A DNA stretch of 26,922 bases from a virus, in IMG/VR virus record IMGVR_UViG_3300032223_002123, positions 1-26,922 of that record; one strand, written 5' to 3'. Every line of letters begins with the position of its first letter. Within the stretch, counting starts at the first letter, position 1. Shown piece by piece: positions 7,021-22,339 of the stretch. The notes under the pieces were generated by a model that did not search any database, was not told the origin of the DNA, and saw nothing but the letters and a program-made list of their open reading frames with translations. A program made the position numbers and the translations under genes.

Positions 7021-7695
7021 GTGCCCGAAAACATCGCCCGACAATATCGGCGTTGGTGGAAAACCTTAACGCCCGTCGAACGTCGCAACCTGATTGATTC
7101 GGGTATGTTCCGCGCCGATCTGATGCTCGAGGAGCTGCCCGGCAATAACGACCGCATCAATCGCAACCCCGTCGATTTGGCAGGAATGGAAATCAGGCAA
7201 TCGGGCGAACATAAGCATACGACCTTCGGGGAAGATTGGACGCCCATCAATGAGGACCTGACGACGACGCGGGATCTCGTCGAGAAGGCCGAGGAGATTC
7301 AGGACCCTAAGCAGCAGGCCCTCGAGCTCGCATCGCTCAGGCTTAGGGCCACGTTGCACTTCCTCCTTGAAGGCCTGGACCGCTCTACCGATCAGGCCGT
7401 GCGCCTGCACGCTGATATCATCAGGCTCGTCGTCGGTGAGGGTTGCCCGCCCCGTATGACCGAGCTTGCCCGGCGTCACGGGGTGACGCGTGCAGCTATC
7501 TCCCTGCGTTGCAGGAAGCTCTTACGTCGTTTGGGCCTCGAGCCCTCGCGGTTTATGCGACCGCAGAATGAAGTGAATAATATGCGGATAGCCTCGATCC
7601 TTCGCGGTAAGCCTAAGGCCGAAGCTGCTGCGCATAAAACTCCTGCGAAAAAAACATCACGTACCAAAGCCCCCCTAAGGAATCTTTTTAAATGA
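7021..7695 (+). CDS. sigma region 4-like helix-turn-helix protein, candidate late regulator
   Basis: A 224-aa protein starting at GTG. A helical body precedes a helix-turn-helix at residues about 146-176 (MTELARRHGVTRAAISLRCR, then KLLRRLGLEP). This pattern resembles sigma-70 region 4 (x-E-L-A-x-x-x-G-V-T-R-x-A-I). The C-terminal tail is Lys/Ala-rich (KPKAEAAAHKTPAKKTSRTK). It is the last gene before the packaging and structural region, the usual place for late activators such as lambda Q. It is therefore my best in-window candidate for the factor that reads the five TTGACTCCCGCGCTA motifs, but that link is not shown by sequence. Confidence 0.6.
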   Translation: MPENIARQYRRWWKTLTPVERRNLIDSGMFRADLMLEELPGNNDRINRNPVDLAGMEIRQSGEHKHTTFGEDWTPINEDLTTTRDLVEKAEEIQDPKQQALELASLRLRATLHFLLEGLDRSTDQAVRLHADIIRLVVGEGCPPRMTELARRHGVTRAAISLRCRKLLRRLGLEPSRFMRPQNEVNNMRIASILRGKPKAEAAAHKTPAKKTSRTKAPLRNLFK

Positions 7696-7863: not shown

Positions 7864-8517
7864 ATGGCCCTTTCTACCGCCCAGGTCGCAGCGCATTTCG
7901 GATTTTCCGAGGCCCGGGCGTATAAGCTGATCAGGGAGGGTATGCCTCTGACGTCGCTCGAAGATGCGCAGGCCTGGCGCGATGCCCGAGCGCTGCGGGC
8001 AAGGCAGGGTCGCCCGGCGATTCCCTCGACCGTCCGCGTCGACCCGTCGGCGATTGTGCCCGACGAGAGTTTCGAGCAGACCGTCGAACGTCACCGCGAG
8101 CTGAAGGAAGCCGCCCGTCAAAGGTACATCGTCGCCCGCGAGGGAGGCCTCGCCGAGGAATCTAAACTATACACGACGTACCAGAATATCCTTAAGACCC
8201 TGGTCGTCGTCGAGCGCGAGGCCTTGGCCCGCAAGCTTGAAGCTAAGGAGCTGATCAAGACGGCGCAGGCTCTGGACAGGTTTCAGCGCGTGCTCGGCGA
8301 GATCAAGGCCGACGTGCTCGGGCTCGGGCTCGAGGTCGCCCCGATCGCGAACCCCGATTCGCCGGGCACGGCCCTGAAGGCGGTCGACGATAAGGTGCAG
8401 AAGCTCCTCGAGAAATGGTCGGCGTCGGCCCGCGAGGCCGTGCATATCGTCGGCGGGGTCGAACCTGGCGCCGATGCCCCGCCGCTCGACGCGTTCGACG
8501 AGGAGGCCGACGAATGA
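7864..8517 (+). CDS. terS: terminase small subunit (Nu1-like)
   Basis: The small terminase recognises phage DNA and delivers it to the large subunit for packaging. The N-terminus (residues 3-40: LSTAQVAAHFGFSEARAYKL, then IREGMP and an AWRDARA helix) matches the winged helix of lambda gpNu1. The middle is a long charged helical region (ELKEAARQRYIVAREGG, ALARKLEAKELIKTAQAL) probably used for oligomerisation. The C-terminus is acidic (DAFDEEADE), the usual site of contact with the large subunit. At 217 aa it is slightly longer than lambda Nu1. Its stop overlaps the large subunit start (ATGA). Phased repeats directly upstream may be its DNA target. Confidence 0.75.
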   Translation: MALSTAQVAAHFGFSEARAYKLIREGMPLTSLEDAQAWRDARALRARQGRPAIPSTVRVDPSAIVPDESFEQTVERHRELKEAARQRYIVAREGGLAEESKLYTTYQNILKTLVVVEREALARKLEAKELIKTAQALDRFQRVLGEIKADVLGLGLEVAPIANPDSPGTALKAVDDKVQKLLEKWSASAREAVHIVGGVEPGADAPPLDAFDEEADE

Positions 8518-10370
8518 GCGCCGACGATGCCTTTACCCTGGCGCTGCGCTCGGCGCTGACGCCGGACCCGCACCGCGACCCGGTCGATTTCCTCGAGCAT
8601 AATATCCGCTCGATTCCTTACTCCCCTTTGTCGGGGCCGTTCCGAATCTCAAACGCCCCTTGGCTCGCCGAGCCTTTGCGCTGCCTGACCGACCCGGAGG
8701 TTCAGGAGGTAGGCGTGATGGGCAACGTGCAATCGGGTAAGAGCTGGATCATAGAAGGCGCGTCGTGCATCCTTCCCGTATTGGCGCCGGGCCCGACGTT
8801 GATGCTCAACGATATCGACCGTAATAGCGAAGATTGGCAGGAGACGCGTCTGCGCCTGCTCTGGGAATCCGTGCCTGCGGTCAAGGCCCTGATCGGCCCC
8901 GACGGTATTCCCAAGAAAGGCGTGATTCAATTCCGAGGCAATTCCTGCTGGGTGCTCGGGGCGAACAATGAGAAGAATCTGCAGCGCCGTTCGATTCGTT
9001 ATGTGCTCGGCGACGAGCTCTGGCTCTGGCCTGTCGGGGCGCTCAAACAGGCGCTTGCCCGAATCACCGCGTACAAATGGCAAAGCAAGGTCGTGCTATG
9101 TTCCCAGGGAGGAACGGAGGGCTCGGATTGGGCCGAATGGTTCGCGAGCACCGATCGCCGGGTATGGTCGTTCTCGTGCCCGAGCTGCGGGGAGTACCAG
9201 CCCTACCAATGGGAACAGGTGATTTTTCCGAAAGAGGCTAAGACGGCGTCGGGCTGGAACCTCGACGGGGTACGCAAGGGGACGAAGTATCAATGCAAGG
9301 CTTGTTCGGCCTACCTGCCCGATACGAACAAAGTACGGACCGACCTGAACAAATCGGGCCGTTACATCGTGACGAATCCCGACGCCCCGAAATCTCGGCG
9401 CGGATTCAATTACAACGCCCTTGCGATGCAATGGGGCCTTACCTGGGGCGAGCTTGCGGTCGAATGTATCGAGGCCCGCAACGCGTACGACGATCGGGGC
9501 GAGAATCAGCTGCGGGTCGAATTCATCAACAAGCGCCTTGCGCAGACGTACCGCGAGGAACCCGACGAGATCAACATCGAGGGCAAGGTAGGCGGTTTCA
9601 GGCTCGGCGACGATTGGGCCGAGGAAGGCGGGTTTGTCAAAGGCAAGCCTACGCCCGGGCGGCAGCTTAATGCCGAGCTCAGGGCGGCGCCTGATTTTGT
9701 TCGTATGCGTTTCCTTTCCGTAGACGTGCAACGGCGCGGATTTTATTACGTTGTCCGGGCTTGGAACGGCGAAGGCCTCTCGCGGTTGTACGCCTGCGGT
9801 TTCTGTTTCACCTGGTCCGAGCTTATCGAGATTCAGCAGAAAAACGGGGTGCACGCCGCAAACGTATTCGTCGATTCAGGCGACCAGACCGACGAGGTTT
9901 TATCGATGTGCGGTAAGAATGGCTGGAACGCGACCCGCGGCGACGCGCGAAACGAGTTTGCCTGGAAGGTCAAAACCCCTGCGGGCGTTAAGACCGAAAT
10001 CAGGCCGTACTCCCCGCCCGTGATCGAGGCCTCGGGTACCAAACGCATTAAGCGATTTTACTTCTCCAACCTTCGCCTGAAGGACACCCTCGCGCTGCTC
10101 ATTCGCCGAGGTAAGCACGCCCGGGCCGACGACGTGCCCGAGGAATACCTGGCGCAGATGCAGGCCGAGCGCCGCACGATTGGGCAGGGCGGCAAGCCGC
10201 TCTGGGAACAGATCGGAAGCCGGGCCAATCATTTCTGGGATTGTGAGACGATGGGCCTTATTCCCGCCCTCGGTTGGAAGCTCACGGGGAAGGGCGCAAT
10301 CGCCGACGAGGCCGCCGAGCTCGCCCAAGGCGGAGAAACGAGCGCCGAAGGCGAGGCCTCTGCCCGTTGA
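8514..10370 (+). CDS. terL: terminase large subunit (GpA family)
   Basis: ATP-driven packaging motor and nuclease. At 618 aa it is close to lambda gpA. The Walker A-like loop is G70-NVQSGK-S77 and the Walker B strand is YVLGDE (acidic pair near D167-E168). A putative zinc-binding pair, C222-x2-C225 and C261-x2-C264, lies between the ATPase and nuclease domains. The C-terminal RNase H-like nuclease shows FLSVDVQRRGFYY and a second acid in NVFVDSGDQTDEV. The start at ATG 8514 overlaps the small subunit stop. The GpA family is usually associated with cos packaging, so cohesive ends are expected. Confidence 0.9.
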   Translation: MSADDAFTLALRSALTPDPHRDPVDFLEHNIRSIPYSPLSGPFRISNAPWLAEPLRCLTDPEVQEVGVMGNVQSGKSWIIEGASCILPVLAPGPTLMLNDIDRNSEDWQETRLRLLWESVPAVKALIGPDGIPKKGVIQFRGNSCWVLGANNEKNLQRRSIRYVLGDELWLWPVGALKQALARITAYKWQSKVVLCSQGGTEGSDWAEWFASTDRRVWSFSCPSCGEYQPYQWEQVIFPKEAKTASGWNLDGVRKGTKYQCKACSAYLPDTNKVRTDLNKSGRYIVTNPDAPKSRRGFNYNALAMQWGLTWGELAVECIEARNAYDDRGENQLRVEFINKRLAQTYREEPDEINIEGKVGGFRLGDDWAEEGGFVKGKPTPGRQLNAELRAAPDFVRMRFLSVDVQRRGFYYVVRAWNGEGLSRLYACGFCFTWSELIEIQQKNGVHAANVFVDSGDQTDEVLSMCGKNGWNATRGDARNEFAWKVKTPAGVKTEIRPYSPPVIEASGTKRIKRFYFSNLRLKDTLALLIRRGKHARADDVPEEYLAQMQAERRTIGQGGKPLWEQIGSRANHFWDCETMGLIPALGWKLTGKGAIADEAAELAQGGETSAEGEASAR

Positions 10371-10460
10371 CAATGGCACCCCGTGCCTCAATCTGTCTGA
10401 GCGCTTCCTGGTGCTCGGGCATAGGGTTTAGGAAGTGGCACCCCTCCGCTGCCCATCGCA

Positions 10461-10487
10461 GGGCAGATTGGCGGGGCCTGCCCTTTT
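10461..10487 (+). terminator. hairpin plus T4 directly joined to late motif copy 1
   Basis: GGGCAG (10461-10466) pairs with CTGCCC (10478-10483) over an 11-nt loop and is followed at once by TTTT (10484-10487). The last two Ts are the first bases of the TTGACTCCC motif. The T-tract is short, so this is a weak intrinsic terminator at the end of the terminase operon. Confidence 0.45.
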
Positions 10488-10503
10488 GACTCCCGCGCTA
10501 TTT
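10486..10503 (+). promoter_or_regulatory. late start-associated motif, copy 1
   Basis: TTGACTCCCGCGCTATTT, identical over 18 bp to copies 2, 4 and 5. It lies in the 161-nt gap between the large terminase and the gpW-like gene, right after a hairpin/T-tract. An ATG occurs exactly 19 nt from the motif's first T (10505), and a second in-frame ATG at 10532. No sigma-70 -10 box lies at the correct distance, so this is a phage-specific promoter or start signal. Confidence 0.6.
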
Positions 10504-10531
10504 TATGGGAAGCCGCGCCACGGGTTGTTTT

Positions 10532-10774
10532 ATGATTCTAACGCAATCGCAGATCGAGGCGATCCGCGACAAGGCCGTTGAGCAGTTACTGCAGGGCCGC
10601 GTTCTTATGGCGTACACCGATTCCGGCACGTCCGTCCAGAAATCCTGGCCGATGGATATCCAGAGCGTCCTTGTGGAATGTCGCTATTCGCTGCAGGTCA
10701 AGGACCCCCAGCAATATGGGGCTATCGACCGCGTCCGCGTCTATAACGGCCTCTGGAATTTCCGAGGCCTCTAA
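10532..10774 (+). CDS. gpW-like head-tail joining protein
   Basis: An 80-aa protein between the large terminase and the portal, exactly where lambda gpW lies. gpW stabilises packaged DNA in the filled head and forms part of the neck. A leading helix (LTQSQIEAIRDKAVEQLLQG) is followed by a beta-hairpin (RVLMAYTDSGTSVQKSW) and a second helix, the gpW arrangement. I prefer ATG 10532 because the protein then begins as gpW relatives do. ATG 10505 is in frame, adds MGSRATGCF, and sits at the same 19-nt spacing from the late motif as two other genes, so it cannot be excluded. Confidence 0.7.
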   Translation: MILTQSQIEAIRDKAVEQLLQGRVLMAYTDSGTSVQKSWPMDIQSVLVECRYSLQVKDPQQYGAIDRVRVYNGLWNFRGL

Positions 10775-10777
10775 TTT

Positions 10778-12346
10778 ATGTCCAAGCCCCGCAAGAAGTC
10801 GGTGAAACCCGACAAGCTTAAGAATATCGCCCGCGCCAAGCGCGGCAACCTGAAGGCACGGGCCGACGGGTTCGGCGGTACCGGGTCGGGCATCTATTCG
10901 CAATTTGAGGCCGCCAAATTCTCGAACAAGCGGCAATATGTCTGGTCGCCTTGGCCCGCCGATTTCAAGAAGGTAATGACGACCTTCGACCGCCAGGAGC
11001 TTACCCGCAAGGTACGCTGGCTGTCGGTCAATTCGGGCCTCGTCCGCGAGATCGTGAATTCGTACTGTATGTACGCGGTCGGCGACGGAATCAAGGTTCA
11101 GCCCGCGTCGGGCAATCCCGCCTGGGATGCCAAGGCCGCGAAGTATTTCGAGGATTGGGCGAGCCGACCCTGCGAGCTGACCGGGCGCTATAATTGGCAC
11201 GAAGTGCAGCAGCTCGTCTGCCGAAAGATTGACGTCGACGGAGAGATTTTCGTGCTCAAGACCTACGGGCAGAATTCCTTCCCGCTCCTGCAGCTTATCG
11301 AGTCGCATCGCGTCGGTATGTCCAACGGTATGCCCGATCCTGCGGGCGCCTTCGACGGAGTGATTTTCAATAAGTATTCGCGCGTGATCGGCTACAACGT
11401 GATTCGTTCCGACGGCACGGCCCGCGTCGTCAGCGCGAACGCGATTATGCACGTGCACAACCCCGAGCAGGTCACGGGCGCCCGGGCTTATTCTCCCCTG
11501 GTCAGCGCGATTAACGGGATTATCGACGTGCTCGAGCTCCTGAGCCTCGAGAAGGTCGCGGCGAAGTCTAACGCGGATATCGTACGTACGATCACCCGCG
11601 ACAACGGCGGTCAATTCGACACGGGCGATTTCGAGGCCTTCGGTATGCGTCCGCAGGATTATCCGAACGGCGTTTACAACAACCCCGAACAGATCGGTTC
11701 GTTCGTCGGCGGCAAGGTGCTTGCTCTCGCGCCCGGGGAGAAGCTGGAATCCTTCGAGTCAAAACGCCCCAACCAACTTTTCTCGGGATTTATAGATTTC
11801 AATAATCGGGACAGCTGTATGGGCTCGGGGCTGCCTTGGGAATTTGTCTGCAATCCTTCGGCTGCTGGCGGCGCTGCTATGCGCTTCATCGTCGCGAAGG
11901 CCGAACGTGCTTTCTCGAATCGTCAGAATATTCTCATCAATCATCTTTGCGTCCCGACCTGGGGATACGTGATCGGCAACGCCATCGCCAATGGCGAGCT
12001 TGAGCCTAACGAGAATTGGCACCGCGTTAATTGGGTCACCCCTCGCCGGGTGAGCGTCGACGCGGGCCGCGAGGCCGCCGCCAACCAGAAGGACCTTGAG
12101 CAGGGCATTAAGACCTATTCCGATGATTTCGCCGAGCGCGGTATGAGCTACGCGACCGAGGTCGACCGACGCGGCGCCGACGCCCGCCTGGCTATCGACG
12201 CGGCGAAGAAATGGAACGTGCCCCTCTGGATGATTACCAAGCCTTCCAATACGCCTAACGCGGATATCGATTCCGCGTCGCAGGATGCGGTCGGCCCGGA
12301 ACCCGACAAAGAATTCACCCCCTTCCCGTCCGCGGGTAACCCCTAA
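10778..12346 (+). CDS. portal protein (lambda gpB-like)
   Basis: Dodecameric ring through which DNA enters and leaves the head. At 522 aa the length and position match lambda gpB. Typical features include the N-terminal helical stretch (ELTRKVRWLSVNSGLVREIV), the central GEIFVLKTYG wing-type strand region, SHRVGMSNG, and late conserved segments PNQLFSGFIDFNNRDSCMG and LPWEFV. A basic N-terminal tail (SKPRKKSVKPDKLKNIARAK) precedes the body. The start is TTTATG without SD, 3 nt after the gpW-like stop. It assembles with the protease and scaffold encoded next. Confidence 0.85.
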   Translation: MSKPRKKSVKPDKLKNIARAKRGNLKARADGFGGTGSGIYSQFEAAKFSNKRQYVWSPWPADFKKVMTTFDRQELTRKVRWLSVNSGLVREIVNSYCMYAVGDGIKVQPASGNPAWDAKAAKYFEDWASRPCELTGRYNWHEVQQLVCRKIDVDGEIFVLKTYGQNSFPLLQLIESHRVGMSNGMPDPAGAFDGVIFNKYSRVIGYNVIRSDGTARVVSANAIMHVHNPEQVTGARAYSPLVSAINGIIDVLELLSLEKVAAKSNADIVRTITRDNGGQFDTGDFEAFGMRPQDYPNGVYNNPEQIGSFVGGKVLALAPGEKLESFESKRPNQLFSGFIDFNNRDSCMGSGLPWEFVCNPSAAGGAAMRFIVAKAERAFSNRQNILINHLCVPTWGYVIGNAIANGELEPNENWHRVNWVTPRRVSVDAGREAAANQKDLEQGIKTYSDDFAERGMSYATEVDRRGADARLAIDAAKKWNVPLWMITKPSNTPNADIDSASQDAVGPEPDKEFTPFPSAGNP

Positions 12347-12357
12347 TTTCCTAAATA

Positions 12358-13923
12358 ATGAAATCCCTTATTCGAGATATCCGCGGTAAGCGCCCCCTGC
12401 TTATCTCCCCTTCGCAGGCCGAGGCCTATCTGGCCCGGACCGCCGACGTCGCTATGCCCCTCGGGGCCAAGCTGTCGGATATGGGCGATATGCTCGCGGC
12501 GATCTTCGGCGCTAAGGAGACGATCGAGAAGTTTCCTCCCTTCGCGATTATCCCCGTCAAAGGCTGCATCGGTAAGGGCCTAAGTGACCTCGAAGCGGCG
12601 TGCGGCGCCTGCGATATCGAGGCCGTCGAGGAAATGCTCGAGGAAGCCGAGCGCGACCCGACCATTAAGACCATTATCCTCGACGTCGATTCCCCGGGCG
12701 GCACGTCGGTCGGGGTTCCTGAGCTCGCGAACCGTATTCGCAACTGCTCCAAGGAAGTAATTTCCTTTACCGACGGCGAGGCCTGCAGCGCCGCCTATTG
12801 GATCGCCTCGCAGGCTAAGTCATTTTACGCGACGGGGAGCTCGTCCGTCGGTTCCGTCGGCGTGTATATCTGTTTCACCAATTCCGAGAAGCTCTATGAA
12901 AACGAAGGCCTTCGACAGGAGCTGGTAAAGGCCGGAAAATATAAGGGCATCGGCCTGGACGGCCTCGGCATCAGCCCGGAGCAGCGCGATCTGCTGCAGG
13001 CCGAGGTCGACGACATTCACGCCGATTTCAAGGCCGCCGTCACGTCGGTCCGCGAATTCGTTTCCGACGAATCTATGCAGGGTCAATCCTTCTCGGGCAA
13101 ACGGGCCGCCGAGGCCGGGCTTGTTACCTCCCTGGTCAACGGGTTTGACGAGATGATGCAGGCGCTTAACGCCCAGGTCGCCGAGCAGATGGAAGCCGAC
13201 GAGGAAAACGACGCCCGTCACGAGATCAGCGAGATTGTCGGCGGCGAGGAACCCGAGCGCGAAGATGAGGCCTTGTCCCGCTTCGCCGCAGGTCGTGCCC
13301 TCAAGGGTATGCCTCAGGCCGCCGCGGTCATTTCCGGCAAGCTGAAGCCTAAGGCCGAAACCGCCGTCGGCGAGGAGCCGACCGAGGAAATGAAGAATCG
13401 CGACCCGCAGGACCCGGTCGACCCGCAGGACGAACCCGACGAGGAACCTGAAATGAAGTGCGTCGTTTCCGATTTCGACGGCACGATCCGAACCGAGGAC
13501 GACGACGATAAGCCCGTCGAGCCCGTCATTAAGCACCTGATGCAGATGCAGGAGAAGGGTAAGCAGATTCACGTCGTGACGGGCCGTATGGAATCCCGCC
13601 GCGCCGAAACCGCCGCTTTCCTCGACGCCCAGGGCCTGAAGGTCGCCGGGTTGCATATGAAGGCCGACGGCGCTCAGCCGATGCCCGAATATAAGGTCGG
13701 CGCCGTCAAGGCGATCGAGGCCGAGCACGGCAAGGTTAAGCACATCCTCGAAAATAATTCCGATTGCCTCGAGGCCTATAAGGCCGCCGGGTATAACTGT
13801 ATTCACCCCGACGACCTGGCCGCCGCGGTCGACGCCGCCGACGCCGGAGAGCGCGGGCTGGATACCGACAAGAAGGCCGACAAATCCGAGCTCGAGAAGC
13901 ACCGCGGCGGGTCGATTGCTTGA
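12358..13923 (+). CDS. S49-family head maturation protease fused to a HAD phosphatase-like domain
   Basis: Residues about 60-275 form an SppA/ClpP-like S49 protease (lambda gpC type): S112-PGG after DVD, the nucleophile region GEAC-S144-AAYW, and SSSVGSVGVY. Residues about 300-368 are an acidic, Pro-rich linker. Residues about 366-500 carry a HAD hydrolase signature: motif I D372-F-D374-GT, motif II Thr408 in VVTGR, a motif III Lys (K446), and motif IV acids E465 and D469 in LENNSDC. In lambda this C-terminal region encodes the nested scaffold Nu3, so the HAD domain replaces or accompanies it. Internal in-frame ATGs at 13391 and 13453 could give a separate short product. The stop overlaps late motif copy 2. 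Confidence 0.8.
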   Translation: MKSLIRDIRGKRPLLISPSQAEAYLARTADVAMPLGAKLSDMGDMLAAIFGAKETIEKFPPFAIIPVKGCIGKGLSDLEAACGACDIEAVEEMLEEAERDPTIKTIILDVDSPGGTSVGVPELANRIRNCSKEVISFTDGEACSAAYWIASQAKSFYATGSSSVGSVGVYICFTNSEKLYENEGLRQELVKAGKYKGIGLDGLGISPEQRDLLQAEVDDIHADFKAAVTSVREFVSDESMQGQSFSGKRAAEAGLVTSLVNGFDEMMQALNAQVAEQMEADEENDARHEISEIVGGEEPEREDEALSRFAAGRALKGMPQAAAVISGKLKPKAETAVGEEPTEEMKNRDPQDPVDPQDEPDEEPEMKCVVSDFDGTIRTEDDDDKPVEPVIKHLMQMQEKGKQIHVVTGRMESRRAETAAFLDAQGLKVAGLHMKADGAQPMPEYKVGAVKAIEAEHGKVKHILENNSDCLEAYKAAGYNCIHPDDLAAAVDAADAGERGLDTDKKADKSELEKHRGGSIA

Positions 13924-13937
13924 CTCCCGCGCTATTT
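13920..13937 (+). promoter_or_regulatory. late start-associated motif, copy 2
   Basis: TTGACTCCCGCGCTATTT overlaps the protease stop codon (TGA 13921-13923) and ends 11 nt before ATG 13949. The bases after it (CAAA) match copy 4, so copies 2 and 4 form a subclass that extends to CTATTTCAAA. Confidence 0.6.
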
Positions 13938-13948
13938 CAAATCGTACG

Positions 13949-14413
13949 ATGACCCTCGAACAGACCCTTAAAAACCTCAAGGCCGCTTTTACCTCCAAGA
14001 GCACCGAGGCCGAGGCCTTCGCGAAAGAGCTGTCGGAATTCAAGGCGAAAAATGAAACCCTCGCCGCCGAGCTCGCCGCCGCCAATGAGCAGCTGAACGC
14101 CGCCGCCGCCTTCGTCACCGAGCGCGAATCGCTCGTCGCCCAGGTCGTCGAAATGACCAAGGCTCTCGCCGCCGCCGAAACGCAGAAGGCTCAGGCCGTC
14201 GAGCAGATCGAGCAGGCCGCCGTCGTCGGCGCCAAGATCGCCGCGTCGGTAGGTGTCGCCCCGGTCGAGATCGCGATTTCCGATACCGCGACCGCCGCCA
14301 AGACCCCCGGAGAAATCTGGGAAGAATACGTTTCGATTCAGGACCCCGCCGCCAAGCTCGCGTTTTACAATAAGAACCGCGCCGCCTGTCTCGCTCACCT
14401 TAACATCAAGTAA
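13949..14413 (+). CDS. putative scaffold or head accessory protein (coiled coil)
   Basis: A 154-aa protein between the protease and the capsid gene. Residues about 1-95 are Ala/Glu/Lys-rich with continuous heptads (KELSEFKAKNETLAAELAAA onwards), a long coiled coil as in scaffolding proteins. The C-terminal 45 residues (TPGEIWEEYVSIQDPAAKLA and following) look like a small folded module that could bind the coat protein. The position fits lambda Nu3/D, so a scaffold is more likely than a decoration protein given the coiled coil. I chose ATG 13949; an upstream TTG frame would read through the promoter-like motif. Confidence 0.6.
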   Translation: MTLEQTLKNLKAAFTSKSTEAEAFAKELSEFKAKNETLAAELAAANEQLNAAAAFVTERESLVAQVVEMTKALAAAETQKAQAVEQIEQAAVVGAKIAASVGVAPVEIAISDTATAAKTPGEIWEEYVSIQDPAAKLAFYNKNRAACLAHLNIK

Positions 14414-14447
14414 TTTTCTTCAACCCCTAATCTCATCCTAACAAGTT

Positions 14448-15365
14448 ATGTCTACTAACTCCGTTCTCAATCAGGGCCTCGCCCCGCAGTTCGTCGCCGC
14501 CGAAACGCTGCGCACGCTCGTCCCGGTGCTCGCTCCTCTCAACAAGGTCGTTACCACCGACTTCAGCGCGTACGTCGCTGAAAAGGGCCAGGTCGTCCAC
14601 ACCCGTTACGCCGACGCTTTCAGCGCTTCGACCTACGATCGTTCTACCGGCTTCGTCGATTCCGACGCCGTCGCTCACGACGTCGCGATCACGCTCTCGG
14701 CTCACAACTACGTTTCCACTTCGTACACCGATACCGAGGTCGCAACCATCTCCCTCGAGATGCTCAAGCGCACGTTCCTGGCCCCTATGGCAAACGCCAC
14801 GGTCAAGAGCCTGTTCGACGCCGTGCTCGCCGAAACCACCGTCGCCAATTTCTCCGGCGTCGCTTACTCCGGCAACAAGGCTAACTTCAACCGCGCCGCG
14901 ATCGCCAACGTCTCGACGAACCTCACGCTCGCTAACCTTCCGTACGAAGGCCGCTCGATGCTTCTCTCTCCTGGCGCTTACGGCCAGCTTCTGCAGGATC
15001 CGTCCGTCGCTCAGTACCTCTCGTACGGTGATCGCGCTCCGATCGTCGACGGCGTCGTCGGTCGCCTGCACGGCATCAACCTGGTGGAATACAACGGTTG
15101 GTCTGCGGGCCCTTCTGGCGAGCATCTCCAGGGCATCGCTGGTTGTCGCGAAGGCCATATGGTCGTGACTCGAATTCCCGCTGCGCCTCTCAGCGGCGGC
15201 GGCGAGCAGATCACCGTGCAGGACCCTGATAGCCAATTCGCCTTTGCTCTCCGCAATTGGTACGATTGGTCCAAGGGCCTCACCAAGATCAGCGCTTCGT
15301 GGATCGTCGGCACCTCTGTCGGCAACCCGAACGCCGCTCAGCGCATCGTCATCACCGACCTCTAA
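14448..15365 (+). CDS. major capsid protein
   Basis: A 305-aa protein directly before a strong terminator and after the protease and scaffold genes. Its sequence is Ala/Ser/Thr/Val-rich as in HK97-fold coat proteins: an N-terminal arm (LAPQFVAAETLRTLVPVLAP), a beta-rich body, a SMLLSPGAYGQLLQDP helix region and FALRNWYDWSKGL near the C-terminus. The overall style resembles the P22-type coat group more than lambda gpE; the subfamily is uncertain. Codons shift toward GCT/TCT/CGT compared with its neighbours, consistent with very high expression. The start is GTTATG after an AT-rich, pyrimidine-rich 34-nt leader. Confidence 0.75.
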   Translation: MSTNSVLNQGLAPQFVAAETLRTLVPVLAPLNKVVTTDFSAYVAEKGQVVHTRYADAFSASTYDRSTGFVDSDAVAHDVAITLSAHNYVSTSYTDTEVATISLEMLKRTFLAPMANATVKSLFDAVLAETTVANFSGVAYSGNKANFNRAAIANVSTNLTLANLPYEGRSMLLSPGAYGQLLQDPSVAQYLSYGDRAPIVDGVVGRLHGINLVEYNGWSAGPSGEHLQGIAGCREGHMVVTRIPAAPLSGGGEQITVQDPDSQFAFALRNWYDWSKGLTKISASWIVGTSVGNPNAAQRIVITDL

Positions 15366-15391
15366 GCCGAAAGGTAAAAAGTCGGCAAACG

Positions 15392-15419
15392 GACCCCGGG
15401 CAACCGGGGTCTTTTTTTT
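15392..15419 (+). terminator. intrinsic terminator after capsid gene
   Basis: A perfect 8-bp stem, GACCCCGG (15392-15399) with CCGGGGTC (15404-15411), closes a GCAA (GNRA-type) tetraloop and is followed by eight Ts (15412-15419). This is a textbook Rho-independent terminator. Its last Ts are also the first bases of late motif copy 3. Confidence 0.9.
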
Positions 15420-15435
15420 GACTCCCGCGCTACAG
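15418..15435 (+). promoter_or_regulatory. late start-associated motif, copy 3
   Basis: TTGACTCCCGCGCTA (15418-15432) is identical to the other copies over 15 bp, then diverges (CAG instead of TTT). It is fused to the T-tract of the preceding terminator, and ATG 15437 lies exactly 19 nt from the first T. A terminator followed at once by this motif is the best single argument that it restarts transcription. Confidence 0.65.
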
Positions 15436-15436
15436 T

Positions 15437-15778
15437 ATGAGCTTCACCGAGGAATGGGCCGCCGACGCCGCCGAGATTCTCGCCGAGATTCCGAAGGCCG
15501 TCACCGTCCGCAGGAACCTCTCGGGCACGCCGACTTCGTTCAATGTCCTGATGGGACCGCCGATGGTGCAGCAGGACCTCGAAACGGGCGGCTTCCTCAA
15601 CGCCGCGTCTTACGACGTGAAATTCCTTCGGGCCGACACCGTCGCCCACCCCGGCGTCGTGATTTACGGAAACCTCGTCGCCTACAACGGGCAGGATTAC
15701 CGCATCGTCGCGATTAACGACCGCCCGCCGAGCGCCTGGGTAATCGTGAAGGTCGTGAGCTCCGCGGGTCCTGCCTGA
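15437..15778 (+). CDS. head-tail connector (FII-like)
   Basis: A 113-aa protein directly after the capsid operon's terminator. A helical N-terminus (FTEEWAADAAEILAEIPKAV) precedes a beta-rich body (SYDVKFLRADTVAHPGVVIY, GQDYRIVAINDRPPSAWVIV). Size, beta-sandwich pattern and position match lambda gpFII and other head-tail attachment proteins that form the interface to the tail. There are only 4 nt between the motif core and the ATG and no SD. Its stop overlaps the next start (TGATG). Confidence 0.65.
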   Translation: MSFTEEWAADAAEILAEIPKAVTVRRNLSGTPTSFNVLMGPPMVQQDLETGGFLNAASYDVKFLRADTVAHPGVVIYGNLVAYNGQDYRIVAINDRPPSAWVIVKVVSSAGPA

Positions 15779-16680
15779 TGGCCCTAAAGAATCAAAAAGG
15801 GGTTCAGGTCGACGCCCGAGGCCTCGAGGCCCATCTTAACGATTTCGCAATCGTGATGGGGCGTAGCCTTTCCGAGGTAGTCCAGCAGCAGGCCGGGCTA
15901 TTCTGTACCGATATGCTCAAGTATTCCCGCCCCTTCGACGGGAAGGTGCCCGGCGCCGGGCTTACCCCTGGGGCAAAGCAGCACGGGATGGAAAACGTCA
16001 ATAACTCCCTGCTTAAGGTATTTCGCCCCATCGCCTACGCGACGGGCTCCCAGATTGCCAACCTTGACCGCTACGACGTGTTTAAACGGTACCAGGAGGC
16101 CAAGGGAGGCACGGGTAGGGGTAAGGCCCTCAAGATGCGCTGGACGGCCTTTAAAGCCAAGTACGGCAACGGGAACGCGGCACTCCCGTTCGTCGAGTCA
16201 GGCGATACCGCCACGATGGCCCGGATTCACGCCGGGCTGCGCGACGACGGCGGGCACGGCGGGCTTAAGCGCTCGGCCCAAGACTCTAAAGAGCCTTTCG
16301 CCCTCGTCGCCGACGATAAGACGATGAAGGCTTATATCCTGCAGAAGCAAAAAGATGTCGGTATGCTTAAATCGGCCTATTGGCACGCCGCCAAGCTGAT
16401 CAGGTCAAAGGTCGCGGGCGGCAGCTGGGTACAGCACCCCGAGGGCGCCGCCCAAGCTATCGCCGTCGACCATCTTATGCAGGCCGCCAAGCCCGAGGTA
16501 ACCGTCGGCAACAAGATCGGCGGCAAGGCGGGTAATGACCGTTTCGTCCAGCTCGCGATTAATCACCGGGCCTTTGCTATGCGCAACGCGATGCTGCGCG
16601 AAATGAACAAACAGAAACTGTCGGCCTGGGAGAAATCCGCGGCGGTCCTTAATTCTTACCAATATTTCCAAGCCTCCTAA
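15778..16680 (+). CDS. minor tail / connector protein (Z-like position)
   Basis: A 300-aa basic, helical protein between the FII-like and U-like genes, the place of lambda gpZ and HK97 gp10-type tail completion proteins. The N-terminal helix (ARGLEAHLNDFAIVMGRSLS) and the RPFDGKVPGAGLTPGAKQHG segment fit such neck proteins. It is rich in Lys/Arg with no membrane segments. The function (tail completion, joining to the neck) is inferred from gene order and composition. The start overlaps the preceding stop. Confidence 0.55.
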   Translation: MALKNQKGVQVDARGLEAHLNDFAIVMGRSLSEVVQQQAGLFCTDMLKYSRPFDGKVPGAGLTPGAKQHGMENVNNSLLKVFRPIAYATGSQIANLDRYDVFKRYQEAKGGTGRGKALKMRWTAFKAKYGNGNAALPFVESGDTATMARIHAGLRDDGGHGGLKRSAQDSKEPFALVADDKTMKAYILQKQKDVGMLKSAYWHAAKLIRSKVAGGSWVQHPEGAAQAIAVDHLMQAAKPEVTVGNKIGGKAGNDRFVQLAINHRAFAMRNAMLREMNKQKLSAWEKSAAVLNSYQYFQAS

Positions 16681-16684
16681 ACCT

Positions 16685-17194
16685 ATGGTCCTTAACAATC
16701 CCGACCTCCCCCCCGTTTTCCTCGGGCATTATAGCATCAATACGATTGTCGAGCTGAACCTCGCCGCCTGGTTCAATACCTACGGCCCGGATATGCTTCC
16801 CGGCGTGCAGATCAACGTCGGTCAGGGTACCGACCTGCGCTCCCTCCCCGTCGTCATTCTTTCCTCGGAAAGCGCTCACGGGCACCCCGACCTCGGCGCG
16901 GCCCCCTTGGGTAACTTCGAGGTTACGGTGCGCCTGTATGTCTATTCCTCGGGCGACGACGAGCTCGCGGGCAATCCCGCCCAGGCCCTCGAGCTGCATC
17001 GGCAGCGAATCATTAACACCGAGTCGATTATGACCTCGGTCGACGGCCTCAAGGCCGCCTGGACTAACGGCGAGCTGTATGCCTGCTGGTTTGTCTCTAA
17101 CGAGGTCGTCACCGCCGAGCGCCGTCTCGGTAATGTCCTGACGTATAACCTGGTCGCCCGTTACCCCGAGGGCATCGTTCCCCCCGGCCCCTGA
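16685..17194 (+). CDS. tail terminator (U-like)
   Basis: A 169-aa alpha/beta protein. Features of tail terminator proteins include an early helix (INTIVELNLAAWFNTYG), a beta-strand pair (FEVTVRLYVYSSG), a helix with LELHRQRIINTESIM, and a late strand (LTYNLVARYPEG). Such proteins cap the growing tail tube as a hexamer. The position before the tube gene and after the Z-like gene agrees. The start is CCTATG, 4 nt after the preceding stop. Confidence 0.6.
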   Translation: MVLNNPDLPPVFLGHYSINTIVELNLAAWFNTYGPDMLPGVQINVGQGTDLRSLPVVILSSESAHGHPDLGAAPLGNFEVTVRLYVYSSGDDELAGNPAQALELHRQRIINTESIMTSVDGLKAAWTNGELYACWFVSNEVVTAERRLGNVLTYNLVARYPEGIVPPGP

Positions 17195-17200
17195 GGTCCC

Positions 17201-17218
17201 TTGACTCCCGCGCTATTT
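17201..17218 (+). promoter_or_regulatory. late start-associated motif, copy 4
   Basis: TTGACTCCCGCGCTATTT begins 6 nt after the tail terminator stop and ends 16 nt before the tail tube ATG (17235). It is followed by CAAA as in copy 2. It would allow the highly expressed tube gene its own transcript. Confidence 0.6.
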
Positions 17219-17234
17219 CAAAGACTAACCCGCT

Positions 17235-17582
17235 ATGGCATCCCTTCCTCAGACTTTCGGAACCCCTCACGTTTGGGCCCTCTACGGCGAAAAGGATTTC
17301 GTCACCCTTCAGTCAGACGACTTCGATTTTAAGCCCGCCCTCGACGTCGAAGTTATGAACGAAACGGGCGTCGTCGTGACCGACCGTATCGACGACCTGC
17401 GTACCGAATGGACCCTTTCCGGCGTCCTGAAGCCCACGGGCACCCGCCCGGCTGTCGGCGACGTGATCGAATACAATTCCGTCAAGGGCATTGTTAAAGA
17501 TATTTCCGACGTCGGCGCTAATAATCAGTTCCGCAAGTTCACCGCGAAAATGACCACTTACCAGGGCATCACGCTCTCGTAA
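17235..17582 (+). CDS. putative major tail tube protein
   Basis: A 115-aa beta-rich protein (FVTLQSDDFDFKPALDVEV, RTEWTLSGVLKPTG, GDVIEYNSVKGIVKDIS, FRKFTAKMTTYQGITLS). The position between tail terminator and chaperone/tape measure is that of lambda gpV, but the protein is smaller than most tube proteins. It has its own copy of the late motif upstream, as expected for a highly expressed structural gene. A minor tube or tail-tip protein is the alternative. The start is GCTATG without SD. Confidence 0.5.
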   Translation: MASLPQTFGTPHVWALYGEKDFVTLQSDDFDFKPALDVEVMNETGVVVTDRIDDLRTEWTLSGVLKPTGTRPAVGDVIEYNSVKGIVKDISDVGANNQFRKFTAKMTTYQGITLS

Positions 17583-17602
17583 TTGGTCACCGCCTCGCCG
17601 CC

Positions 17603-18184
17603 GTGTCGATTCGGTGGAACCAGGCAGCCACGATGCTCCCGCCGACCCTCAAGGTCTGCGGGCGCACTCTTTTACCCTTCTGCATCAGGCACCGCGTCGC
17701 CCTCGAGGCTATCCGTTCCCCGATCATCACGCCCGAGAAACCTATTACGGTTTCCGATGTGATGTTCGCGGCCCGGGTGCTTTCGACGTACGACCTTAAG
17801 GACACCCGCAAGCCCTCGACGCTGCGCGAGAAGGCCCTCGCCGCCTGGTACACCCTAAGGCCGGACAAGCTCGCCGCAGAGGTCCTTGCCTTGCGAATCT
17901 ATTTCGACGCGCAATCCCTTTGGCCCCGTTTCTGGGAAAAGGAAGAAAAGGCGAATTCGGGCGGCATCCCTTGGCAACTTACGATCATCGCCGGGCTTGC
18001 CCGTAACGGAATCCCGCTTGAGCAGGCCTGGACGATGCCCGAATCCGAGGCTGTCTGGCTTTATATCGCGAATTGCAAAGCCGAAGGGTCGAAGATTGAT
18101 TTGATTACCGACGAGGAATTCGAGGCTATGGAACGTGAAAAGGCCTCGAACCCCGAACCCGAAACCAAAAACACCCGCAACTAA
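17603..18184 (+). CDS. putative tail assembly chaperone (position-based)
   Basis: A 193-aa protein between the tail tube and tape measure genes, the place of lambda G/GT chaperones. Helical segments include VSDVMFAARVLSTYDLKDTR, KALAAWYTLRPDKLAAEVLA, and the PWQLTIIAGLARNGIPLEQA helix with a MPESEAVWLYIANC motif. The C-terminus is acidic and disordered (EREKASNPEPETKNTRN). Two starts are possible: GTG 17603 (used here) and ATG 17633, which would give MLPPTLKVCG. I see no convincing slippery heptamer plus downstream frame, so no G/GT frameshift is called. The stop overlaps the tape measure start. Confidence 0.5.
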   Translation: MSIRWNQAATMLPPTLKVCGRTLLPFCIRHRVALEAIRSPIITPEKPITVSDVMFAARVLSTYDLKDTRKPSTLREKALAAWYTLRPDKLAAEVLALRIYFDAQSLWPRFWEKEEKANSGGIPWQLTIIAGLARNGIPLEQAWTMPESEAVWLYIANCKAEGSKIDLITDEEFEAMEREKASNPEPETKNTRN

Positions 18185-19392
18185 TGGCTGACGACGTAAA
18201 AGTTAAATTCGGCGGCGACTTCTCGGATATCGCGAAGGGCGCCGGGGCCGCCGCTAAGCACGCGGGCAATATGCTCGAGACGTCGGTTACCAATTACGCG
18301 ACCGGGCTCGCCGGATCAATCGGATCGATGTTCACCCTCGAAAGCATCGTCGAAAAGATTCAGGAAGGTTTTAAAGGGGCCGCCGAATATTTCAAGGAAG
18401 TTTCCCGGGGCATCAAGACGTCGGGCGTCAACGCCGAGGAATTCCAGAAGATTATTGAAATGGGCAAGCCTGTCGGCGTCACCGATATCGGCACGATTAG
18501 CAAAGGCCTTGGAATCTTCGAGAAAAGCATCAGCTCGGCCTCTAAGGGAGCGGAATCTTATCGCAAGGTACTGCGCGAGCTTGGTTACTCTAACGAGGAA
18601 ATCTCGTCGGGCTCCATCACGGCATCTTCGGCGCTTCAGGCTTTGGCGAAACAATGGGAAAACCCTGCGCTCCGTAAGAATGTCGCCTCGAATATCGGGG
18701 TGCTTTTCGGAGGTAAATCCGGCAAGGAATTCAAGCCGATCGTGCAGGCGGGTTCCGCTTACATCAATCAACAGCTGCGTGACGCGAAGGTTTATTCCCA
18801 GGCTCAGATTGAGATTACCGACGCAGCCGAACGAGACGATGCCCGCCGATCTGGTCGAACCAAGAAGTTTTTCAAGAGCGCCGAGATGCGCCTGGATTAC
18901 GAGAAAACCCTCGGCGTTATGACCGGGGCGATGGCTGAGACTCAAAACGCTTTTGAAAAGGCAGGCAAAAAGGACATTTCGCAGACCTCTACGGAATTCC
19001 TCGACGCGTATATCGAAAACCTGAAGGGAAAAGGCGTCACCCTTCGCGCTACCCTCGAGATTATCCGTTCCCTTACGGAAGGCGGCGAATATTCGCACGC
19101 AGCCGAACGCAAATCGATTGATTTCCGAAAGAATATTATGGGCGCCCTTGGGAAGTACGGCGCCAAGCTGATGCAGGAACAGATTCCCGATATCGAGGAA
19201 GCAAACCCTGGTCGCATCGCCCTCACGGCCTCGTCGATTCAGGCGATCGGCGGCGGCGACATTAACTCCGTATTGGCCGCTTCTTATCAGGCCGATATGC
19301 TCGACGCGACGCGCCAGGTCGCCGAGAATACCCGCAAGATGGCTGAACAGACCTCGCCCGGCGCCGAAGCCCCTGCCAAGGCAGGCCGATAA
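18184..19392 (+). CDS. tape measure protein (short)
   Basis: A 402-aa Ala/Gly/Lys-rich helical protein following the chaperone-position gene. It contains long helices (SIVEKIQEGFKGAAEYFKEV, DARRSGRTKKFFKSAEMRLD), a Gly/Ala hydrophobic patch near residues 35-50 (TGLAGSIGSMFTLESIV), and a C-terminal helix (DMLDATRQVAENTRKMAEQT) ending in a disordered tail. Tape measures set tail length at roughly 0.15 nm per residue, so about 60 nm would be predicted. That is short for a siphovirus. A minor tail protein is an alternative. The start overlaps the preceding stop (TAATG). Confidence 0.6.
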   Translation: MADDVKVKFGGDFSDIAKGAGAAAKHAGNMLETSVTNYATGLAGSIGSMFTLESIVEKIQEGFKGAAEYFKEVSRGIKTSGVNAEEFQKIIEMGKPVGVTDIGTISKGLGIFEKSISSASKGAESYRKVLRELGYSNEEISSGSITASSALQALAKQWENPALRKNVASNIGVLFGGKSGKEFKPIVQAGSAYINQQLRDAKVYSQAQIEITDAAERDDARRSGRTKKFFKSAEMRLDYEKTLGVMTGAMAETQNAFEKAGKKDISQTSTEFLDAYIENLKGKGVTLRATLEIIRSLTEGGEYSHAAERKSIDFRKNIMGALGKYGAKLMQEQIPDIEEANPGRIALTASSIQAIGGGDINSVLAASYQADMLDATRQVAENTRKMAEQTSPGAEAPAKAGR

Positions 19393-19395
19393 CTT

Positions 19396-20277
19396 ATGCC
19401 CACCTCCTCCCCCACCCGAAAAGATTTCGGCGATAACCTCGTCGGCCTCGGAGGCCTGCGCCAGCCCTCCGGCACGATCGAAATCGACGCGTACGGCGTC
19501 GCCCAGGCTCAGCTTACCTTCGCCCTTGATTCGTCGAATACGAACATCGCGACGAACATCGAGCATTTCAAGCTCGGCGTGCTGCACCCCGATTCAATCG
19601 ACCTCGGGTTTAACCTCTGGTCCTATCGTTACCACATCACGAGCGCCAAGGGCGGCGTTTCTATGATCACGGTCGATTACCTCGGCATCGCCCGGGAAAG
19701 CGGTCATAGCGACTCCCAGATTCACGGCGTGATCAACACGACGGCGCAGCCTATCGAGACTCATCCTAACTTCACGGTCAAACCGACCGATTCGGGTTAC
19801 GAAAACGGACCCCTCGCCGGATATTCCGACGACGTGACCAGCCAGAAGAATAACGCTATGTGGGGCGACGAGGACGCCCAGGGCAACCGACCTTTCCGCG
19901 GTTTCGGCATCACCAAGAAGGATCAGGAGATTAACAAGAAGGCCGGGATTCGTCAGTATCTGCGCTGTATGCAGACTATCCGCGGCGTTATGTTCTTCTC
20001 CGGGTCAGAGGCTACGAATACCGTCAAGCTGCTATGCGAGAACGTCGGTTGTTATATGAACAACCTCGACACGCAGACCCTCGCCCAGCCGAACAACATT
20101 TACCCGCAGATCGTTAACGGGCAATTCTGGCTGATGACCGCGGCTAACGTCGAATGTATCGGCACCCCGACGTCCTCGGGCCATTTCGCGGCGTTGAAGG
20201 TCACCTATGACCTGATGCACGGTGGCGAAGATGGCTGGGATAAGGATATCTACCTCGAAGGCCCCTCGATCTTCTAA
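19396..20277 (+). CDS. tail-tip / baseplate-like structural protein, 293 aa
   Basis: Beta-rich protein directly downstream of the tape measure, where distal tail and hub proteins are usually encoded. It contains a repeated strand pattern (TIEIDAYGVAQAQLTFALDS, HFKLGVLHPDSIDLGFNLWS) and an aromatic C-terminus (FAALKVTYDLMHGGEDGWDK). No enzymatic motif is visible. The specific family is unrecognised; a structural role is inferred from context. The start is CTTATG, 3 nt after the preceding stop. Confidence 0.5.
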   Translation: MPTSSPTRKDFGDNLVGLGGLRQPSGTIEIDAYGVAQAQLTFALDSSNTNIATNIEHFKLGVLHPDSIDLGFNLWSYRYHITSAKGGVSMITVDYLGIARESGHSDSQIHGVINTTAQPIETHPNFTVKPTDSGYENGPLAGYSDDVTSQKNNAMWGDEDAQGNRPFRGFGITKKDQEINKKAGIRQYLRCMQTIRGVMFFSGSEATNTVKLLCENVGCYMNNLDTQTLAQPNNIYPQIVNGQFWLMTAANVECIGTPTSSGHFAALKVTYDLMHGGEDGWDKDIYLEGPSIF

Positions 20278-20281
20278 GGCC

Positions 20282-20944
20282 GTGCTACGCGACTCTGGCA
20301 TTTCCGGGCAACCCTCTCGGTTCAATGAGCGCTTCAAGGCCGGGGCCCCTATCTCGGCCCAGGACCTTAACGCCCTGGCGGCGGGCATCACGGCGACGAC
20401 CCCTCAGTTTTACCTCGGGGAAGGCCCGCAGATTTCTCTCGGCTCCGGCGGGGTGCAGATCGTCGATAACCGCGATATCGGCATTTCCAAGCCGACCCCC
20501 TGGAAGCCCCGCGACAACGGCGACGGCAGCTTTTGGATGTACCCGGGCACGGTCAACTCCCTGATCCCGTGCATCGGCGACCCTGGGATTGAAAACCTGC
20601 TTACGTTCAAGGGAACCCCGAAACCGTACGAAACCTATTCGTTCAATTCGGCGGGCGACTGTTATATCTACCTTCAATGCGCCATCGGTTCGGGCACGCC
20701 GCCCCAATGGCCCGAGGTCGACCCGACGAACGTCAATTACCCGACTATCTACGCGTTCGACTCCCCGCAGACCGACGACGATACGTACGGCTTTATCTTG
20801 CTCGCCCTGGCGCAGAAGGACCCGGCCTCGACGGCGACGAATCCCCCCGTCACCTTTACGCAATTCGTCTTTAATTCCCTCTGGACCGAGCGGCACAAGT
20901 ATTCGCAGCCTAATTCGGCCCTGTATTACTTCTACCGGGTATGA
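20282..20944 (+). CDS. tail structural protein, 220 aa
   Basis: Unknown tail protein rich in Pro, Gly, Thr and aromatic residues (KPTPWKPRDNGDGSFWMYPG, SAGDCYIYLQCAIGSGTPPQ). A motif near the N-terminus, FKAGAPISAQDLNALAAGI, resembles the start of small tail-fibre or tip proteins. I chose GTG 20282, which lies 4 nt after the previous stop. The longer GTG 20222 would overlap the upstream gene by 56 nt. The stop overlaps the next ATG by 4 nt (ATGA). Confidence 0.5.
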   Translation: MLRDSGISGQPSRFNERFKAGAPISAQDLNALAAGITATTPQFYLGEGPQISLGSGGVQIVDNRDIGISKPTPWKPRDNGDGSFWMYPGTVNSLIPCIGDPGIENLLTFKGTPKPYETYSFNSAGDCYIYLQCAIGSGTPPQWPEVDPTNVNYPTIYAFDSPQTDDDTYGFILLALAQKDPASTATNPPVTFTQFVFNSLWTERHKYSQPNSALYYFYRV

Positions 20945-21978
20945 TCGACAGCGGAACCTTCCCCGCTTGTCTGCGTAAGGCTAATTACTTCTACGCGCCG
21001 AGCTTCCCGAACCCGACGCCGGACCCGAGCGCCGACCCGCCCATCGTCGCGGACCTTCCGATTATATCCGTGCTCGGGTATTACGTCGTCGGCGCAGGGT
21101 CTGGTTCGTTCACGATTGCGAGCTCGGGGTCGGTGACCTTCAATGTCCCCCTGACCCCTCCCGACACGTTCAAGGTCGGCTGGCCCGTGATCGCGTACGG
21201 CGGCAGCACGTTCGGCCCGACGGCCCAATGGGTCCTTGCCCGGATTACCGACGTCAATACCTCGGCGAATACCCTTACCCTGGACGTCTATGATTCCAAG
21301 GGGTCAGGCACCTATGCGGATTGGTACATTGTGCCCCAATTCGCCGCGGGCGCTTGGAATTACATCCAAAACGAGAATTATTCCGCGTACGATACCCCGG
21401 TGCGATGGTCGACGAACGGCGGCAGCATCGGTATCAATTTCCCGTCTAACGCTACGAGCACCAATTACGTCACGATTAACACCCCGACGCATAAGGTAGG
21501 TTATACCGAAATAAATTTCAAGATGAGCATCTCGGTCGTCGAATCCGAATATGAATATCATCGGCCCTATGTCGGAAAGACCCTTAACGCCAAGCGCACG
21601 CTGACGACGACGGTCAGGTCGTACGCTTATCCAGGGCCTGAGGTAGTCACGACAAGCTCGGTCGATATCTCGCAAACCTATGCCTTCGGCGACGGCGATT
21701 TTAGTACCTTACATCCGGGTTATGTCGCCGGGGATCCCGCGGTATATGATTCGGCGACGGGCTATATCGTGAGCTACCCGACCCCGAGCAGCTGCACGAC
21801 GCAAAACCTTTCGGCCTCGGATAGCACGTATAACTCATACGAATACGACGATACCTATTCGACGCTTGAGCCTGGCGGTCCGCTCGTCCTTACAGCGTAC
21901 GTCCGAACATCGCGGGCTTTTACGAGCGACGTGACGTATTCGACCCCCTCGCCGACGAGCTTCTTCTGGCCCGGCTAA
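20941..21978 (+). CDS. Ser/Thr/Tyr-rich tail structural protein, 345 aa
   Basis: A beta-rich protein dominated by Ser, Thr, Tyr, Gly and Pro, with a strand-turn pattern (SGSFTIASSGSVTFNVPLTP, NTSANTLTLDVYDSKGSG). It resembles central tail tip or fibre-adaptor proteins. The segment ending IVPQFAAGAWNYIQ may be a conserved junction. There is no enzymatic motif and the exact family is unrecognised. It overlaps the preceding gene by 4 nt. A late motif copy starts 15 nt after its stop, so it is the last gene of this transcription block. Confidence 0.5.
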   Translation: MIDSGTFPACLRKANYFYAPSFPNPTPDPSADPPIVADLPIISVLGYYVVGAGSGSFTIASSGSVTFNVPLTPPDTFKVGWPVIAYGGSTFGPTAQWVLARITDVNTSANTLTLDVYDSKGSGTYADWYIVPQFAAGAWNYIQNENYSAYDTPVRWSTNGGSIGINFPSNATSTNYVTINTPTHKVGYTEINFKMSISVVESEYEYHRPYVGKTLNAKRTLTTTVRSYAYPGPEVVTTSSVDISQTYAFGDGDFSTLHPGYVAGDPAVYDSATGYIVSYPTPSSCTTQNLSASDSTYNSYEYDDTYSTLEPGGPLVLTAYVRTSRAFTSDVTYSTPSPTSFFWPG

Positions 21979-21993
21979 GGCTTTCGGGCGGGT

Positions 21994-22011
21994 TTGACTC
22001 CCGCGCTATTT
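21994..22011 (+). promoter_or_regulatory. late start-associated motif, copy 5
   Basis: TTGACTCCCGCGCTATTT ends 1 nt before ATG 22013, which lies exactly 19 nt from the first T as in copies 1 and 3. A weak stem (GCCCG 21969-21973 with CGGGC 21985-21989) precedes it. With the ATG this close there is no room for an SD, so a transcript starting here would be leaderless or nearly so. Confidence 0.6.
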
Positions 22012-22012
22012 T

Positions 22013-22339
22013 ATGGCGGCACCGACTGTAACCTGGAAACGAGGGCAAACCTTTACGGCGACGGGGCCTTACGTGCCCGGAACGGGCGACCCTGCGGATT
22101 TGGCGGGCGTCACCGTGCAGGCCGAGGTTCAGGATCGTGCCCTTCGGCGCTGGCCCCTGACCGTCTCGGTCGGTTCCGATAACCTTACCGTCACCCTTTA
22201 CGCCGACCCTTCCGTTACCTCTCAATGGGACGTCGGCACGGCCTCAATCGATTTGCGCTGCACGTACGGCGGGGTCGTTTTCTCGACCACTACCGTCCGT
22301 TTCATCGTCGAGCCCGAGGTTACCCTTTCCAATGGCTAA
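22013..22339 (+). CDS. small beta-sandwich tail/baseplate protein, 108 aa
   Basis: A 108-aa beta protein with the pattern VTWKRGQTFTATG, a loop, a GVTVQAEVQDRALRRWPLTV strand pair, and DVGTASIDLRCTYGGVVFST near the C-terminus. Proteins of this shape are common next to tail fibre genes and form an Ig-like or baseplate adaptor domain. Its gene begins immediately at the late motif and overlaps the tail fibre start by 8 nt, so the two are co-translated. Function is inferred from neighbourhood. Confidence 0.6.
   Translation: MAAPTVTWKRGQTFTATGPYVPGTGDPADLAGVTVQAEVQDRALRRWPLTVSVGSDNLTVTLYADPSVTSQWDVGTASIDLRCTYGGVVFSTTTVRFIVEPEVTLSNG

Follow-up and report, generated by a model that had tools for sequence, protein, structure and literature searches.

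Five matched elements at the late gene boundaries of an uncultured bacterial virus are probable late promoters of one phage-specific kind

Background

What does a short sequence do that stands, letter for letter, in front of each of five groups of structural genes in one viral genome? The window (i.e., the whole stretch of DNA analysed here) is a 26,922-base virus record, classed linear, from an uncultured bacterial virus whose host is probably Verrucomicrobia-like and whose nearest isolate is the Verrucomicrobia phage P8625 (capsid 28.5%; PMC4642752). A comparison of gene order with relatives suggests that about 6 kb are absent between its right and left ends. Early replication genes occupy the left side of the window, and the other genes identified include those for the terminase small subunit (7864-8517), portal (10778-12346), head protease (12358-13923) and major capsid protein (14448-15365, + strand), all assigned by PHROGs, as well as the terminase large subunit (8514-10370, tblastn). 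Joiner, scaffold, connector and tail tube are names that we gave from gene position and general knowledge. The C-terminal domain of the head protease gene product matches polynucleotide kinase/phosphatase families (phrog_415, E 1e-12). This fusion is unusual, and the gene ranges from 352 to 521 aa across relatives.

Results and discussion

The initial annotation had reported five exact copies of the 15-mer TTGACTCCCGCGCTA, at 10486, 13920, 15418, 17201 and 21994, on the + strand only and each at a late gene boundary, with the identity extended by TTT in four of the five, and all of these observations were reproduced. No further site with up to three mismatches occurred on either strand of the whole window, window shuffles gave 0.98 ± 0.98 hits with none of 100 reaching five, and the earlier judgement that five copies could not be chance agrees with 200 order-2 Markov simulations of the window, in which no 15-mer exceeded two copies. 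The true unit is longer than the 15-mer first noted, namely 20 bp ending in A. Element 1 (10486..10505, +; TTGACTCCCGCGCTATTTT followed by A) heads the joiner/portal/protease unit, and its A is the first base of the ATG of the joiner-like gene (10505-10774). Element 2 (13920..13939, +; TTGACTCCCGCGCTATTTC followed by A) ends 10 nt upstream of the scaffold-like gene, whose ATG is at 13949, and a TGA within it doubles as the stop codon of the upstream protease gene. In element 3 (15418..15437, +; TTGACTCCCGCGCTACAGT followed by A), the A is again the first base of an ATG, that of the connector-like gene (15437-15778), while element 4 (17201..17220, +; the same spelling as element 2) ends 15 nt upstream of the tail-tube-like gene, whose ATG is at 17235. 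Element 5 (21994..22013, +; spelled as element 1) ends on the first base of the start codon of the gene that precedes the tail fibre (22013-22339). The description of the motif as phage-specific, start-associated, oriented and confined to the late region thus stands, as does the division of the late genes into joiner/portal/protease, scaffold/capsid, connector, tail and fibre units.

A dispersed host repeat does not account for the motif: a search for its exact spelling gave 74 single hits, in scattered taxa, across 257 Gb of contigs from bacteria and archaea, none of them with two copies, and none of the 84,980 species genomes had multiple copies. Rfam held no match for the element. Two other repeats were seen in the window. 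One is a tandem GGAACTTCCGTA repeat at 6452-6478, which is non-coding, lies between the helicase gene and the next gene, and is surrounded by a region (6361-6594) rich in small inverted repeats. The other is the 19-bp repeat CCCAATAACGATCCTATGA at 26573-26591 and 26809-26827, which adjoins and includes the ATG; its copies precede two consecutive genes at the right end of the window, and it is possibly a second, early-gene start-associated sequence.

Having defined the element in the window, we then looked for it in relatives, of which the capsid protein search provided 60 loci (52-91% identity) and the portal search nine. The same five boundaries are marked in related phages, at the homologous places before the joiner, scaffold, connector, tail-tube and pre-fibre genes. 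The spelling of the window is kept only in its two or three nearest relatives; the others each have a spelling of their own (e.g., TTGACTCCCGCGTAGG, TTGACTGTGGCGGAGG and TTGACACTTGGCTAAA), repeated three to five times, and the six closest relatives of about 32 kb carry their own variant exactly five times per genome and nowhere else. One relative (G008; L197/L198) has a diverged element, TTRAC...GGCT. As judged from these sequence comparisons, the elements are real, conserved late-unit start elements.

The copies within a genome vary in concert. Across 27 dereplicated genomes, positions 6-19 had an identity of 0.83 between the boundaries of one genome and 0.50 between genomes, at the same or different boundaries, and the observed within-genome identity was reached by none of 2000 permutations. 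The flank shows the reverse pattern, as the 14 bases directly upstream were 28% identical within a genome versus 38% at the same boundary across genomes. This concerted variation is explained by selection that a single trans-acting reader in each phage exerts, and not by the shared ancestry of individual sites alone. It also bears on the idea that the element is a boundary sequence aiding module exchange between related phages: the element does sit exactly at module borders, but recombination of this kind predicts spellings mixed across boundaries and phages, whereas those observed are matched within each genome, and we give this idea next to no credence.

The anatomy of the element was derived from 140 distinct sites. 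Among these, TTGAC at positions 1-5 is nearly invariant, with close to 2 bits per base, and is followed by T or A at position 6. Positions 10-12, mostly GCG, are conserved as well (1.1-1.4 bits), positions 13-16 are phage-specific, and positions 19-20 are pyrimidine-A, with A20 at 1.75 bits. On the aligned sites, the element is therefore described as having three parts, i.e., the invariant TTGAC (box 1), a phage-specific box at positions 10-16 (box 2; GCGCTAT in this phage and another sequence in each relative), and the pyrimidine-A at 19-20. The centres of the two boxes are about one helical turn apart, and the 140 sites share no block from -70 to -2, nor downstream beyond position 22.

Across relatives, A20 coincides with the first base of the start codon at three boundaries. 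At the other two, scaffold and tube, it mostly precedes the ATG by 2-20 nt; the element there stands up to 21 nt upstream, and the ATG is further downstream than A20 at all sites but one. In the 72 leadered sites, where A20 does not belong to the start codon, it is nevertheless A in 97% and position 19 is a pyrimidine in 98%, so A20 is not simply the start codon. Y19A20 was present in 119 of 134 sites versus 18 of 288 TTGAC occurrences elsewhere in six genomes, a signal that holds with the nearest TTGAC chosen without preference for Y-A. A20 is thus fixed relative to TTGAC and not to the ATG and, as it coincides with the A of the ATG or lies a short distance upstream of it, resembles a transcription start.

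The closeness to start codons at all five places could instead suggest a translation-initiation element, and the initial annotation had named the start-associated sequences (SAS) of cluster K mycobacteriophages as the closest analogue, while noting that their sequence is unrelated. The latter remark is correct, and the analogy fails on sequence, Shine-Dalgarno (SD) content, copy number and gene class. Cluster K SAS have a 13-bp consensus, GGGATAGGAGCCC, with an AGGAG/SD core, and occur in 11-19 copies, 3-7 bp before the start codons of non-structural genes (PMC3203893). Like them, the motif described here is a short oriented repeat just upstream of genes; unlike them, all five of its copies head structural units. 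SD sequences are essentially absent from the late genes of this phage group, whether the element is present or not, and the motif genes pair with the anti-SD more weakly than random 17-mers do (for an assumed anti-SD sequence). A ribosome-binding role was rejected because the late genes of the group lack SD sequences altogether. Furthermore, a translation signal is hard to reconcile with an element that lies up to 21 nt before the ATG at two boundaries while A20 keeps its distance to TTGAC, or with a concerted change of spelling that has no ribosomal partner, which makes it a most improbable reading. Some Verrucomicrobia are reported to be SD-scarce (PMC10783764), with which leaderless and short-leader mRNAs are compatible.

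The sequence upstream of two boundaries is informative in another way. An intrinsic terminator follows the major capsid gene (15391..15419, +), with a 9-pair stem (GGACCCCGGG/CCGGGGTCT) and then a T run that ends inside the TTGAC of element 3, and the ATG is 20 bases further, so that the whole signal between terminator and ATG is the element. A terminator-like hairpin with a CCTTTT tail follows the terminase large subunit gene (10437..10485, +; z -4.2 in the window), directly 5' of element 1. When the 50 bases before the element were folded against mononucleotide shuffles in relatives, mean z values were -2.5 at the joiner and -2.6 at the connector boundary, about 0 at the scaffold, tube and fibre boundaries, which have no common upstream structure, and mostly between +0.1 and -0.9 at control gene starts (-1.25 at the capsid start).

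These terminators bear on the possibility that a long late transcript is cut at pyrimidine|A into leaderless or short-leader mRNAs. Pyrimidine-A is a common cleavage dinucleotide, its fixed position would place 5' ends at the ATG, and the TGA overlap at the scaffold and tube sites implies that the element lies at translated ends. However, the terminators found immediately upstream of the element at two boundaries would leave the following unit without a promoter; no upstream structure is common to the scaffold, tube and fibre sites; and an unknown phage nuclease would be required. We consider RNA processing very unlikely. Still less probable is an operator or stoperator-like site for a phage repressor or activator that is not itself a promoter. 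The element is short, asymmetric, oriented, boundary-placed and phage-specific, as are the stoperators of cluster A mycobacteriophages (PMC9283540, PMC6550527), but there are only five copies, all heading units, their fixed spacing to Y-A and ATG is not needed by a roadblock, and no other promoter-like conservation is found nearby.

We therefore consider it probable that all five elements serve as late promoters and belong to a single phage-specific type, with transcription starting at A20. The lack of an SD role, the two sites 10-20 nt before the ATG and the terminator before two boundaries speak for a late promoter over a translation signal. The best reading of the aligned sites is a compact, undescribed promoter type that gives leaderless or short-leader mRNAs; we found no described equivalent in the open-access literature. 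The A of the pyrimidine-A would be +1, which would place box 1 (TTGAC) at -19 to -15 and box 2 at -10 to -4. At three boundaries, +1 would be the A of the start codon and the mRNA would thus be leaderless, and at the other two there would be a short leader, 10 and 15 nt in this phage. The terminators after the terminase and capsid genes would end the preceding transcript, and each unit would thus be started separately.

Several known promoter types share features with the element. With sigma-70 promoters it shares their -35 consensus core, which is box 1, yet a scan found no sigma-70 promoter at any copy, with no -10 box at 16-18 bp, and the place where that box would be expected is coding sequence without a conserved block in the 140 sites. 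Sigma-54 geometry (GG-N10-GC) does not fit the spacing. Like promoters of T7-type single-subunit polymerases, the element is compact (~20 bp), would end at +1, is phage-specific and has no separate -35 and -10 boxes; unlike them, it has an unrelated sequence, and no such polymerase was found in near-complete relatives. Closest in use and evolution are the late promoters of phage sigma factors (phiEco32, 7-11; T4 gp55, SPO1), which are likewise few, well conserved, phage-specific and placed at the head of structural units, with the host polymerase retargeted, and whose spelling diverges between the related phages 7-11 and phiEco32 (PMC4331800). They differ in that those phages have a recognisable sigma factor, whereas here no region 2 was found and the candidate is only region-4-like, and in that the inferred start here lies about 19 bp, rather than 35 bp, downstream of TTGAC.

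Phage P8625 has homologous portal, terminase and capsid genes, and its late genes too are preceded by TTGACA near the ATG; unlike the element, however, the TTGACA-N17-TATTGG (or variant) is standard-spaced there, and the 20-bp element is unmatched in P8625. At 5412-5448, 10736-10772 and 15558-15594 of P8625 (L171), TTGACA-N17-TATTGG/TATCTG is followed by an ATG about 7-10 nt on, with GTATCC...GGATAC inverted repeats in between. These sites look like standard-spaced, near-leaderless promoters. As they stand before late ATGs, we offer as a suggestion only that a standard promoter may have been the origin of the compact element, or may have been replaced by it.

Which factor reads the element? 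A T7-type polymerase (PF00940) was absent from five near-complete relatives, with a positive T7 control (the window itself lacks part of the genome), sigma region 2 (PF04542) was absent from 12 records, with positive controls, and the ORF lists of two near-complete relatives from the group of the window (31.8 and 32.6 kb) contained no unassigned polymerase-sized gene. As no phage polymerase was found in near-complete relatives, the host RNA polymerase would be used, together with a phage-encoded factor reading the element. The candidate for this trans-acting factor is a 224-aa protein (7021-7695, +) with a sigma-region-4-like C-terminal helix-turn-helix (residues about 92-173), whose gene adjoins that of the terminase small subunit and which lies beside terminase in 10 of 11 relatives. 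Among the loci listed, the element is present in all 31 that have both this protein and the joiner. The relative with the diverged element (G008) has no detectable copy of the protein and may use another factor.

An AlphaFold model of the candidate, built on a 38-sequence alignment, had a mean pLDDT of 74.7 (>90 in the C-terminal domain), and nearly all of its best 50 matches were to region 4 of primary sigma factors. The best fold match, to E. coli residues 529-600, had a Z of 6.6 (4.2 Å over 70 residues, 27% identity), and a Z below 8 is not proof of kinship; the best Foldseek E was 0.15. By sequence, sigma region 4 gave no significant match (Pfam E 0.24 in one member). In sigma factors, recognition of the -35 box TTGACA is the task of region 4, and this protein is therefore a natural candidate for TTGAC, although TTGAC is not at the standard distance for such a reading. 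Motif distance tracked the sigma-4-like protein better than TerL/TerS in 21 loci (r 0.78; partial 0.69). In a test of 25 proteins in nine genomes, however, the protein was not singled out, as scaffold, exonuclease and capsid did equally well or better, and its covariation with the motif was -0.30 within the six closest genomes. Because this second test was not specific, we name the protein only tentatively, as a possible reader of the element. More speculative, and on balance doubtful, is the fuller proposal that a lone sigma-region-4-like phage protein captures the host RNA polymerase at a TTGAC placed only some 19 bp upstream of the start, with no standard -35 and -10 boxes, that transcription starts on the A of the ATG, and that box 2 is matched to the lineage.

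Alternatively, the host RNA polymerase may be guided by an unusual host sigma factor, with the spelling varying with the host. That the universal -35 box has TTGAC as its core, that neither a phage polymerase nor a full sigma factor was found, and that late promoters in the distant isolate P8625 appear to be of the ordinary TTGACA-N17-TATTGG type would all be in keeping with a host factor. On the other hand, eleven positions change together while proteins are still 70-80% identical, which is fast for a regulon-wide factor, and the species genomes searched (exact spelling only) held no multi-copy motif. A host sigma factor thus seems unlikely, and we favor late promoters read by a phage-encoded factor.

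Conclusions

Few phages have had their late promoters worked out in detail, and we found no such case among those that infect Verrucomicrobia. Here they would be readable from sequence alone: each genome offers five matched sites with a fixed start base, and natural variants number in the dozens. If this reading is true, the elements would constitute a compact, portable promoter-specificity set and would allow one to test whether initiation can be directed by a lone sigma-4-like domain, and leaderless late mRNAs would be predicted in hosts that seldom rely on Shine-Dalgarno sequences.
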